64,000 nucleotides of DNA from Variovorax sp. (lineage in GTDB: Bacteria; Pseudomonadota; Gammaproteobacteria; Burkholderiales; Burkholderiaceae_C): positions 1 to 64,000 of the forward strand of contig SEGS01000033.1 in the NCBI GenBank assembly GCA_004210915.1, given 5' to 3'. Below the pieces are notes generated by a model that saw only the letters and a list, made by a program, of their open reading frames with translations, did not search any database and was not told the origin of the DNA. Position numbers and translations under genes: made by a program. Positions 38,377 to 42,100 of the stretch are shown here, piece after piece (the stretch's first letter is position 1; every line of letters begins with the position of its first letter).

Positions 38377-39354
38377 GTGTCCGTATTCAAGAACGTCATC
38401 GTCTATCGCATCGAACCATCGTGGTCGCAAACGCTGACCGAGGCCGAAGAGGGATTGGGCCAGCTGCGCTTCGTGCCCTGCAGCCCCTCGCAGGAAAAAT
38501 CATCCGGCTGGACCGAGCCGCGCGGCCAGGAACATGGCCCGCTGGTCGAATCCATCGACGGCCAGTGGCTGCTCGAATTCATGATCGAAAGCAAGGCGCT
38601 GCCGGCCTCGGTCGTGCGCCGCAAGCTCGACGAACGCTGCGCGCAGATCGAGGCCACCACCGGCCGCAAGCCCGGCAAGAAGGAGAAGAAAGATCTCAAG
38701 GAAGACATCACGCACGAGTTGCTGCCGCTGGCGTTCACGCGGCATGCCCGCGTCGCGGTGTGGATCGATCCCGCCGAGCGGCGGCTGGTCGTCAACAGTT
38801 CCAACGCGGCGCGCGCCGACGAGGTCGTCACCAGCCTGGTGAAGGCACTCGACGGCTTCGGCGTGTCGGCCTTCAACACGCAGATCGAGCCGGCCACCGC
38901 GATGTCGGGCTGGCTGGCGAGCCAGGAGCCGCCCGCCGGCTTCACGATCGACCGTGAATGCGAGCTCAAGGCCAGCGACGAATCGAAGTCGGTGGTGCGC
39001 TACGCCAAGCACCCGCTCGACATCGAAGAGGTGCGTCAGCACATCGCCGACGGCAAGCGGCCGACGCGGCTGGCCATGACCTGGAGCGACCGCGTGTCCT
39101 TCGAGCTGACCGACACGATGCAGATCCGCAAGATTGCCTTCCTCGAAGGCACGCTCGACAAGGGATCGTCGACCGGCTCGAAGGAAGACAACTTCGACGC
39201 CGATGCCGCGATCGCGACCGGTGAACTCGGGCAGTTGCTGCCGGAACTGTGGGACGCGCTGGGCGGCGAGATGGCGTTCGCCGCCGCGGCGGACTCATCG
39301 GCCGCACCGGACGAACGCCCCGTCGACGCCGAGGTCGAAGACGCGCCGTTCTGA
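38377..39354 (+). CDS. rdgC: Recombination-associated protein RdgC
   Basis: A 325-residue ring-forming DNA-binding protein that limits RecA activity. Typical features are MSVFKNVIVYRI at the N-terminus, FVPCSPSQEKSSGWTEPRG, KKEKKDLKEDITHELLPLAF and RLAMTWSDRVSFELTD. Start is GTG at 38377, matching the family N-terminus; the longer frame would run into ilvE's leader. Length is close to the usual 300-310, with a short acidic C-terminal tail. Confidence 0.95.
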   Translation: MSVFKNVIVYRIEPSWSQTLTEAEEGLGQLRFVPCSPSQEKSSGWTEPRGQEHGPLVESIDGQWLLEFMIESKALPASVVRRKLDERCAQIEATTGRKPGKKEKKDLKEDITHELLPLAFTRHARVAVWIDPAERRLVVNSSNAARADEVVTSLVKALDGFGVSAFNTQIEPATAMSGWLASQEPPAGFTIDRECELKASDESKSVVRYAKHPLDIEEVRQHIADGKRPTRLAMTWSDRVSFELTDTMQIRKIAFLEGTLDKGSSTGSKEDNFDADAAIATGELGQLLPELWDALGGEMAFAAAADSSAAPDERPVDAEVEDAPF

Positions 39355-39503
39355 CGGCGTGCAGCCGAGGTAGACCGAAGGTTCTCTTTGGCGTTTTCAA
39401 ACCACACCGGGGCGAGAACTAAGGATTTAGCCCCACGAAGATTGGGATTTTCTGCGTGAAGAAATGCACAAGCTGCATGTACCGTTTCGTTTTGAAACAT
39501 TAC

Positions 39504-39525
39504 ATTGCAATTGTCAATTTGCTTT
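39504..39525. promoter_or_regulatory. AT-rich dyad upstream of the GTPase-Roadblock module
   Basis: The 183-bp gap after rdgC is markedly richer in A/T than its surroundings from about 39464. It contains an imperfect dyad, GCAATTG next to CAATTTGC, just upstream of the AGGA ribosome-binding site (39527-39530). This is the only sizable gap before the four-gene module and probably holds its promoter. No confident -35/-10 pair was found. Confidence 0.3.
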
Positions 39526-39537
39526 CAGGACGCGCTG

Positions 39538-40206
39538 ATGACCGACTTCCATTCGACCGCCACGGCCCCCCGACCGACTTTGGGGTTCGCGTTGGAAGGC
39601 ATGTCGGGCCGCGAAGAATTTCTCTTCAAATCGATCGTCCGGTTGCTCGACCACCGCACCGTGCAGCACTGGGTCTACCAACCGGTAGCGCCCGACCTGC
39701 GCGTGATCGGCGAGGGCGCTGACCATCCCGCGCGGGCCGAGAGCCCGCTCAAGCTCACGCTCAGCGCCGCACCGCAACAGCGGCCGCATTGCCTTGCGTT
39801 TCCCCTCCGGGCCGATGCGCTGGAAGCGGAACTGAACCTTCTGGGTGCCGAACACATTCAGGCGCAGCGCGACATCGATCCTCCGATGCGCTTGCTGCGC
39901 TGGCCACCGCAGGAGCTTCTGGACTCCGCCGAGCGCCTGAAGCTGGCAGCCCTGATGGTCGCGGGCCCGTTCACACGGGACCGGCTACAACAGCGTGCCG
40001 GACTGCCGTCCGATGTGTGTGCTGCCTTCTTCGCGGCATTGCGCGAAGCCGGCATGCTGGTTCCCGTTGCCGGCAGCGCCGCGACGCCGGACACGGCGCC
40101 TGCGGCGCTGGCCGCCGCGTCACGTGCGCCAGAGGCGCCTTCGCGCGCCGGCCTGTTCACCCGGATCCGGCATCGCCTCGGTCTCCTGCCGACGGCGCGC
40201 GCATGA
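39538..40206 (+). CDS. Uncharacterised protein with C-terminal winged-helix-like domain, GTPase module
   Basis: A 222-residue protein of unknown family. Residues 1-115 are mixed alpha/beta and could be a degenerate receiver-like or regulatory domain (FALEGMSGREEFLFKSIVRL, AFPLRADALEAELN). Residues about 120-180 look like a small winged helix (SAERLKLAALMVAGPF then DRLQQRAGLPSDVCAAFFAAL). The last 40 residues are an Ala/Pro linker and a basic tail. ATG 39538 has AGGA 7 bp upstream. The stop overlaps the GTPase start by 4 bp. Position and fold suggest a role like DUF742 proteins of actinobacterial conservons (inference). Confidence 0.7.
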   Translation: MTDFHSTATAPRPTLGFALEGMSGREEFLFKSIVRLLDHRTVQHWVYQPVAPDLRVIGEGADHPARAESPLKLTLSAAPQQRPHCLAFPLRADALEAELNLLGAEHIQAQRDIDPPMRLLRWPPQELLDSAERLKLAALMVAGPFTRDRLQQRAGLPSDVCAAFFAALREAGMLVPVAGSAATPDTAPAALAAASRAPEAPSRAGLFTRIRHRLGLLPTARA

Positions 40207-40745
40207 GCGAACACAAGATCCTGTTCACCGGCACCGCCGGCGCCGGCAAGACCACCGCGATCGGCGCGATCAGCGAGGTGGCGCCGGTCCGCACCGATGT
40301 ACGCAACACCGATGCCACGGTGCTCAAGGCCACCACCACCGCGGGCCTGGACTACGGCGAGCTCACGCTCGACAACGGCGAGAAGCTGCGCCTGTACGGC
40401 ACGCCGGGTCAGCAACGCTTCGACTTCATGTGGAAGATCCTGGCGCGCGGCGCGCTCGGCCTCGTGATCCTCATCGACAACAGCCGCGCCGACCCGCTGG
40501 CCGATCTCGATGTCTACATCGGAGGCTTCCGCGCGCTGATCGACGAGGCGGCCTGCGTGGTCGCGGTCGGCCGGCTCGACACGCATCCCACGCCGAACCT
40601 CGAGCAGTTCGCCACGCGCCTGCTGACCCACGGTGTGCTCTGCCCGGTGCTGCCGATCGACGTGCGCGATCCGGCGCAGGTGGCCCAACTGCTGGACCTG
40701 CTGTTGATTCAACTCGAAACGCGTACGGAGAACTGCCTCTCGTGA
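40203..40745 (+). CDS. Small Ras-like GTPase of the Roadblock module
   Basis: A 180-residue GTP-binding protein. G1 is GTAGAGKTT (residues 10-18), the switch I threonines are in KATTTAGLDYGE, and G3 is YGTPGQQRF (65-73). The G4 motif NKxD is degenerate (GRLD, 123-126), so guanine specificity may be weak. It resembles the conservon GTPase CvnD and MglA-type regulators. It overlaps both neighbours by 4 bp, the next being a Roadblock protein, a usual regulator of such GTPases. Confidence 0.87.
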   Translation: MSEHKILFTGTAGAGKTTAIGAISEVAPVRTDVRNTDATVLKATTTAGLDYGELTLDNGEKLRLYGTPGQQRFDFMWKILARGALGLVILIDNSRADPLADLDVYIGGFRALIDEAACVVAVGRLDTHPTPNLEQFATRLLTHGVLCPVLPIDVRDPAQVAQLLDLLLIQLETRTENCLS

Positions 40746-41128
40746 ACCCGACCACCCCTCACCTCCAGCTGATCTCGCAGGGCGCGGTCGACCTGATCAT
40801 GAAGGAGATCGGTCACGTGAAGGCCTGCCTGGTATCGACCGAGGACGGCTTCGAGGTGGCCTCGTGCATCCGCAACGACGCCGACCTCGCGCGCTTGTCG
40901 GCGATGGCGAGTTCGATGGCCGCGCTGGCCGCGATCGCTGGAGAAGAAAGCCGCATCGGCGAGACGAACAACGTGGTCATCCAGGCCGCCGGGGGCCACA
41001 TCGTGATGATGCAGGCCCGCCGCGCCGACGTGACGCTGGTGCTCAGCATCGTGACGGGCAGCGAGGCCGTGATGGGCCAGATCCTCTACTTCGCACGGCA
41101 GACCGCGCGCGCACTGGAAAGCGCATGA
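40742..41128 (+). CDS. Roadblock/LC7-domain protein 1
   Basis: A 128-residue protein that is essentially one Roadblock/LC7 domain: VKACLVSTEDGFEVAS, the helix ARLSAMASSMAALAAIAGEE, then GGHIVMMQARRADVTLVLSI. Family members (MglB, CvnB) dimerise and act as GTPase regulators. GTG at 40742 overlaps the GTPase stop (GTGA), so translation is coupled. Confidence 0.88.
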   Translation: MNPTTPHLQLISQGAVDLIMKEIGHVKACLVSTEDGFEVASCIRNDADLARLSAMASSMAALAAIAGEESRIGETNNVVIQAAGGHIVMMQARRADVTLVLSIVTGSEAVMGQILYFARQTARALESA

Positions 41129-41250
41129 CCACGCGCCCAAGCCGGCGCCGTCGCCGCCCCACGGGCTGAGCACACCGACATGCAGCGTCTGCGGTTCTGT
41201 CGCCGCGGCAGCCGCTGCTTTCAACCTGGCGCAGAAGGAAGGAATACGAA

Positions 41251-41610
41251 ATGGCGAATGTCAAACAATCGATGGAAGACTTGCTGACGATCGACGGTGC
41301 CATGTGCGCCGCACTGGTCGACTCTGGCAGCGGAATGATCCTGGGCCAGCTCGGCTCGGGCGTGGACCTCGAAGTGGCCGCCGCAGGCAACACGGAAGTG
41401 GTGCGGGCCAAGCTCAAGACGATGAAGGCTCTGGGCCTGAACGATGCGATCGAGGACATCCTCATCACCCTGGGCCGCCAGTACCACATCCTGCGGCCTA
41501 TCGCGACCAAGGAAGGCCTGTTCATCTACCTCGTGCTGGACAAGACCAAGTCGAACCTGGCGATGTCTCGCCGCAAGGTGCAGGAAGTCGAACGCGAACT
41601 GGTGATCTGA
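41251..41610 (+). CDS. Roadblock/LC7-domain protein 2
   Basis: A 119-residue second Roadblock-type protein: MCAALVDSGSGMILGQLGSG, the helix NTEVVRAKLKTMKALGLND, then RQYHILRPIATKEGLFIYLVL. It differs strongly from the first copy. It has its own strong ribosome-binding site (AGAAGGAAGGA) after a 122-bp gap, so it could be made in different amounts. The C-terminal helix LAMSRRKVQEVERELVI is charged and could mediate contacts. Confidence 0.82.
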   Translation: MANVKQSMEDLLTIDGAMCAALVDSGSGMILGQLGSGVDLEVAAAGNTEVVRAKLKTMKALGLNDAIEDILITLGRQYHILRPIATKEGLFIYLVLDKTKSNLAMSRRKVQEVERELVI

Positions 41611-41632
41611 TTTCGCACACGCCGACGCAGGG

Positions 41633-42100
41633 TCAGCGCGGCCCTTCGTCGGCGGGCGTGCTTTGCATCGCGGGAGCGGCCAGCATGACCGGATCCGCCG
41701 CGACTTCGGGCCGGGTCAGCTGCCAGCTGCGCAACTTGCCATCGACGAACTCTCCCTCCACCCAGGATTCGCCGGCGTCAGTCCAGCGGTAGACCTCGGG
41801 CTGCGCGTCCTTGACCGAGCGCAACTCGCCGAGCGAACGCGTCATCGCCACCACGTGCAGCAGCGTCATCTTCGGCTTGAGCTTGGCGTTGAGCATCACC
41901 GCGCTGGCGACATGGCCGACCGGCCGGTCGGCGGCCCGCTGCAGCACCTGCATCGTGCGCGTGAAGTGCAGCAGCAGGAACATCACGATGCCCCCACTCA
42001 CCACCGCCACGCCTGGCCATCCGTAGTTGTTGTAGCCCACCGCGAGCAGGATCAGTCCACCGAGCGGGACCATGAGCTTCTGGAAATTCATGGCGGACAT
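41633..42100 (-). CDS. Uncharacterised membrane-anchored protein
   Basis: A 155-residue protein with two N-terminal hydrophobic segments (about 10-22 and 30-45, with VPLGGLILLAVGYNNYG and GGIVMFLLLHFTR). A cytoplasmic part follows with VASAVMLNAKLKPKMTLLHV. I do not recognise the family. Start at 42100 (MSAMNFQKL) or three codons later; the longer frame is unlikely. It is convergent with the Roadblock gene and diverges from the lipoprotein at 42238. Confidence 0.6.
   Translation of the reverse strand: MSAMNFQKLMVPLGGLILLAVGYNNYGWPGVAVVSGGIVMFLLLHFTRTMQVLQRAADRPVGHVASAVMLNAKLKPKMTLLHVVAMTRSLGELRSVKDAQPEVYRWTDAGESWVEGEFVDGKLRSWQLTRPEVAADPVMLAAPAMQSTPADEGPR

Follow-up and report, generated by a model that had tools for sequence, protein, structure and literature searches.

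The closest described relatives of the genes considered here are the Group 3 MglA systems of beta- and gammaproteobacteria, which were defined by Wuichet & Sogaard-Andersen in 2014 and which, in the accessible part of that paper (PMC4316618), consist of a protein with a receiver-like N-terminus and a winged helix-turn-helix (wHTH)-like C-terminus, the GTPase MglA and one or two MglB. While characterizing a 64,000-nucleotide stretch of a Variovorax sp. genome (contig SEGS01000033.1, positions 1 to 64,000; hereafter the window), we examined four rightward genes at 39538-41610, here named A to D, which a first-pass annotation had tentatively taken for a conservon-like switch not yet described in this group. 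Judging from that part of the paper, the claim of novelty does not hold, since Group 3 MglA was described with the same architecture, and the module is already described in outline there. As in Group 3, the first protein is receiver-like and wHTH-like, the GTPase has GTPGQ in G3 and an odd G4, and one or two Roadblock genes follow, in beta- and gammaproteobacteria. What makes the module of interest is an exchange-factor hypothesis for protein A, together with protein D.

Gene content and conservation of the module

The four genes form a real module, conserved as a unit in content, order, predicted folds and motifs. To the 80 of 84 relatives of B kept from a scan of named genomes (Variovorax, Polaromonas, Delftia, Undibacterium, Massilia, Ottowia, Pseudomonas, Tahibacter, Methylococcales, Thiotrichales, Acinetobacter and others) we added two sister modules of the window's genome, L007 and L008, and the window itself, giving a set of 83 loci. 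The commonest gene orders were ABCD (41 loci), ABCED (17), where E is a further Roadblock-like gene, AB (11), ABCE (5) and ABD (3), the remainder being ABC (2), BC (2), BD (1) and DBC (1). A stood beside B in 79 of these 83 loci, all found through B, whose presence throughout simply follows from its use as the query; A, C or D genes that have diverged may go undetected, as in Acinetobacter. This bears out the expectation that the gene order would be conserved in Burkholderiales.

The GTPase motifs agree with the assignment to Group 3. All 83 loci keep G10, G13, G15 and K16 of the P-loop as well as the G-P-G-Q of G3 without change; T67 is found in 80, with Ser in the other 3. T45 (82 loci) and T46 (all 83) occupy the sites of the Arg-Thr of Group 1, such that Thr replaces the Arg finger in G2; which of the two is the G2 Thr is our own assignment. 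G4 deviates from NKxD or [NT]KxD, reading G-R-L-D in the window, and G5 has the DAR-like Arg of Group 3, as D-V-R in the window and with D153 and R155 in 67 of the loci. These motifs agree with those printed for MglA Groups 2 and 3 in the part of PMC4316618 consulted, and the hallmarks of Group 1, an Arg beside the G2 Thr and the sequence TVPGQ, are absent. One point sits less well with the assignment, namely an Arg at position 44, two ahead of T46, in 21 of the 83 B proteins. The remaining Group 3 features are also present: two MglB-type genes lie within four genes, C by its match to PF03259 (4e-6 in Pfam) and D by its Roadblock fold, and A is the conserved receiver-like and wHTH-like protein.

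C is an MglB/CvnB-like Roadblock, with profile matches to two archaeal Roadblocks and cvnB5 (1.8e-14 to 7.6e-13), and all 68 C proteins keep the Asp-Gly pair singled out in the accessible text of PMC4316618. E, found in 22 of the 83 loci, has a Roadblock as its best match among PDB profiles (0.0026) and sides with D (hhalign 93.7%) rather than with C (2.8%).

Table 1. Genes of the Variovorax module (window coordinates)
Gene	Position	Strand	Description
A	39538..40206	+	222 aa; pseudo-receiver (~residues 12-114), winged helix (~131-176), short basic C-terminal helix (206-213)
B	40203..40745	+	MglA-family type of Ras-like GTPase; G3 with GTPGQ, G4 non-canonical, G5 with D-V-R
C	40742..41128	+	MglB/CvnB-like Roadblock protein; GTG start; Asp-Gly pair kept
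D	41251..41610	+	another Roadblock-fold protein, from a distinct and highly conserved family

The 4-bp overlaps noted earlier, A/B (ATGA) and B/C (GTGA), are present, and 122 bp separate C from D. A 14-codon frame at 41126 begins where E begins in the sister loci, and could be a relic or chance. The operon has no kinase, as the first reading had it. The gene upstream of A is rdgC, in the same orientation, and a class IV aminotransferase gene also lies upstream, in the opposite orientation. A scan of 39300-41760 found nothing resembling a promoter or terminator.

The window's genome holds two further B genes, 69% and 58% identical to the first, each in an A-B-C-E-D module. In L007 a PAS-HisKA_3 kinase lies upstream on the same strand (L007:9838-11880), with a LuxR-type response regulator beyond on the other strand. 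In L008 (L008:6638-8350) the reading frame of A is continuous with that of an adenosine deaminase gene, no stop intervening, and the resulting frame of 570 aa, with PF00962 at 8e-90 on residues 23-339, is either a fusion or an assembly quirk. In a midpoint-rooted tree of 92 B rows, comprising none of the published Group 3 references and leaving out L107, L094 and fragments, the three copies fell in three separate lineages, the window pairing with Variovorax L020 (97/84), and the beta- and gammaproteobacterial rows came together (91/99), apart from conservon and Thermus/Deinococcus rows. L107, a Neisseria gonorrhoeae record, has its A and B matches in separate frame pieces and C in one frame, from broken genes or record errors. 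On a Thermus oshimai plasmid (L108) a GTPase-Roadblock pair adjoins DUF4388, protoglobin and EAL genes.

The module is accessory. Of 61 genomes sampled in the genus, 22 have D; of 200 sampled in the family, 63 have a D match when fused and distant forms are counted; and of 274 sampled in the class, 54 match the A profile, some through the winged helix alone. Among the 40 clusters of neighbouring open reading frames (ORFs) listed, which were judged by eye, the widest consist of antisense or overlapping frames of the module genes themselves. One cluster, LysR-like by our reading, spans 22 loci in 12 groups, and a neighbourhood that we read as dnaE-like is typical of one lineage.

The proposed switch and the role of protein A

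Taking these parts together, it can be hypothesized that the module is a Group 3 MglA-type switch in which B is the GTPase, C the GTPase-activating protein (GAP), D a second Roadblock subunit and A the guanine nucleotide exchange factor (GEF), an assignment of roles that we consider evenly poised between right and wrong. B would be turned off by C, perhaps together with D, as a GAP-type Roadblock partner, and D would either pair with C or serve to dock the switch to a common partner. A would be the input and activator, its winged helix and C-terminal helix acting on B, while its pseudo-receiver would sense through protein contact rather than phosphorylation and gate the GEF activity. Of the biochemical roles that we infer here (GAP, GEF, docking), those of C and A are carried over from reports on the mycobacterial conservon, where, in the parts of PMC13015309 and PMC9769811 available, MfpD is the GAP and the DUF742 protein MfpC the likely GEF of the GTPase MfpB.

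Several points weigh against this assignment. In the available text of the same two papers, mfpC occurs only in Actinobacteria (PMC13015309), the legend of Figure 1 interchanges the GAP and GEF labels (PMC13015309), and the GEF role of MfpC is left open (PMC9769811). The roles of A to D are read from genes and predicted folds, D and the conservon Roadblock do not match (0.3%), and correlated distances would also be expected from shared ancestry alone. A literature search that covered few subscription papers found no biochemistry of a Group 3 switch.

The predicted structure of A is a trimmed pseudo-receiver followed by a winged helix, as the first-pass annotation had suspected, with a C-terminal helix modelled at low confidence. 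A is not a phosphorylatable response regulator: at the sites of the phospho-acceptor Asp and the conserved Lys the window has Gly58 and Phe88, and among 73 A proteins Asp58 occurs in 26 and Lys88 in 3 (positions read from model and alignment). Foldseek returned many metalloprotease rows for A, at E 0.008 and up and with a Foldseek probability of up to 1.00, which we judged spurious because the top rows span ~50-70 columns with a TM-score of 0.21 or less.

That the C-terminus of A is kin to DUF742, for which the first-pass annotation thought A might substitute, is no more than suggestive. By profile comparison, it resembles 12 DUF742 proteins (hhalign 88.0%) more than 5 ArsR controls (56.9%). 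On the other side of the scale, with the winged helix alone the two are nearly tied (84.8 for DUF742 against 78.3 for ArsR), none of 60 A proteins matches DUF742 in Pfam at E 0.1, and an A C-terminal hidden Markov model (HMM) run against 430 ORFs of 12 conservon loci recovered no DUF742 protein; Foldseek with A gave nothing at E<=0.001. The window's genome likewise has no match to the Pfam DUF742 model.

The foremost alternative, put forward by the authors of PMC4316618 in the part consulted, is that A binds DNA and regulates transcription under the control of the GTPase/Roadblock switch, which we regard as less likely than not. The receiver-plus-wHTH layout is what such a regulator would have, a PDB profile match to SmtB was obtained at 0.0075, and of the 60 A proteins 17 match TrmB and 9 an ArsR-type NCBIfam model, counts that also speak against kinship with DUF742. 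However, the third helix of the helix-turn-helix (HTH) is slightly acidic in A (mean charge -0.63, n=73; window -1), as against +1 to +2 in ArsR (n=5) and 0 to +1 in DUF742 (n=5). This argument is weak: it vanishes over the whole 24-residue HTH, where the charges overlap (A mean -0.68, window +1; ArsR -1 to +1), and the third helix of DUF742 is no nearer to A in charge, which does the exchange-factor reading no service. Further against DNA binding, a Trp-Pro ahead of the winged helix is invariant in a 60-row alignment of A and the basic terminal helix is conserved, both outside the HTH. Finally, the position of A beside the GTPase in nearly all loci suggests a protein partner, though it is compatible with DNA binding too.

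Compatible with either role of A, the switch may govern polarity or type IV pili, as does Myxococcus MglA/MglB; we hold such an output to be unlikely. The MglA precedents favor it, as far as the sources consulted go, and so does Snodgrassella, whose mglA belongs to Group 3 and in which, in the accessible part of PMC11112851, orphan mglB variants alter colony edges and gut colonisation. Against it, B is devoid of the Group 1 hallmarks and no pilus gene is evident among the 40 neighbour clusters listed. PilM is found in 60 of the 61 genomes of the genus sample, D in 22, but with PilM near-universal the co-occurrence is uninformative on a pilus role. The output of the switch may be polarity, pili or gene expression.

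Group 3 switches are present in many beta- and gammaproteobacteria. If A is indeed an exchange factor, this small operon would encode a GEF-GTPase-GAP cycle, and the transcription-regulator idea of 2014 would be displaced.

Protein D and its relatives outside the module

D has a Roadblock fold by structure, weakly supported by sequence: Robl_LC7 matches 1 of 36 D proteins, at 0.0046. It is not simply a second C (hhalign between the two 27.6%), in keeping with the earlier description of two divergent Roadblock proteins beside a Ras-like GTPase. At the site of C's Asp-Gly, D carries Ser-Gly by our reading of the alignments, and D is therefore expected not to be the catalytic partner. The divergence among the three copies in the window's genome is 24-30% for D, 33-44% for B, 65-67% for C and 74-79% for A; by these comparisons D is the most conserved part of the module, a new observation here.

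Likewise new here, D is also found away from A and B, and D-like domains occur in larger proteins. A tblastn search of plasmid records with D gave 28 records, including Streptomyces (9), Hymenobacter (5), Deinococcus (3) and Nocardia (1). Of six plasmid neighbourhoods opened, one, a Comamonas odontotermitis plasmid (L126), has a complete ABCD module, annotated hypothetical-GTPase-roadblock-hypothetical; the A and B profiles have no match in the other five. The relatives in these five, from plasmids of Streptomyces, Deinococcus and Methylomagnum, share 53-60% identity with D, and an alignment of 11 D rows has 27 invariant columns. Pfam at E 0.01 gave nothing for these five, and NCBIfam no match over cut-off for the six plasmid D proteins. 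On two Streptomyces plasmids (L122:2038-4375, L127:2031-4363) a C-like Roadblock gene stands close to a pair of D-like genes, A and B being absent. A D-like domain also forms the C-terminal end of ~440-aa Burkholderiales proteins, a pair of which is encoded in each of the four loci fetched (L110-L113). The N-terminal region of these proteins is unnamed, the four proteins scanned having no Pfam family over cut-off, and their genes lie near NadA, quinolinate phosphoribosyltransferase or ClpB genes in the two loci inspected (L110, L113).

A full-text literature search for orphan or stand-alone Roadblock proteins found no account of a D-type family; the orphan MglB of Actinobacteria, which the part of PMC4316618 consulted mentions as a small clade, could be it. 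Tentatively, one could envision that D founds a separate, cross-phylum Roadblock-fold family with a GTPase-independent activity of its own, e.g. ligand binding or scaffold assembly, which Group 3 modules recruited as a common output or docking subunit, with A as the pseudo-receiver-regulated exchange factor; we think this combination unlikely. Should D represent such an independent trans-phylum family, a set of 'hypothetical proteins' would gain a fold and a testable partner.

Comparison with described systems

The actinobacterial conservon/AGPS (CvnA-D, MfpE-B) also encodes a winged-helix protein together with its GTPase and Roadblock, all within a single operon, and C qualifies as CvnB-like (hhalign 95.9% against 5 CvnB proteins). 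As a likeness, then, 'conservon-like' is apt; as membership it is not, the CvnA kinase being absent from the operon and kinship with DUF742 being no more than suggestive. A has an extra pseudo-receiver, and the order is A-GTPase-Roadblock-Roadblock. That the module is a conservon relic left by loss of the kinase is very improbable, for although the parts are similar and one copy in the genome, L007, has its upstream kinase and nearby LuxR-type regulator, the gene order differs, the beta- and gammaproteobacterial GTPases group apart from those of conservons, and no kinase is evident among the 40 neighbour clusters listed.

Myxococcus MglA/MglB with RomR/RomX and MglC/RomY shares with the window a GTPase, one or more Roadblock partners and a receiver-bearing regulator. 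Its GTPase, however, belongs to Group 1, with the Arg finger and TVPGQ that B lacks, and RomR is presumably not a receiver-wHTH protein. Group 3 as published, in the part of PMC4316618 available, comes with one or two MglB, whereas the window has a D-type Roadblock without a Pfam match; the second MglB of the published systems could be of the D type or the E type.
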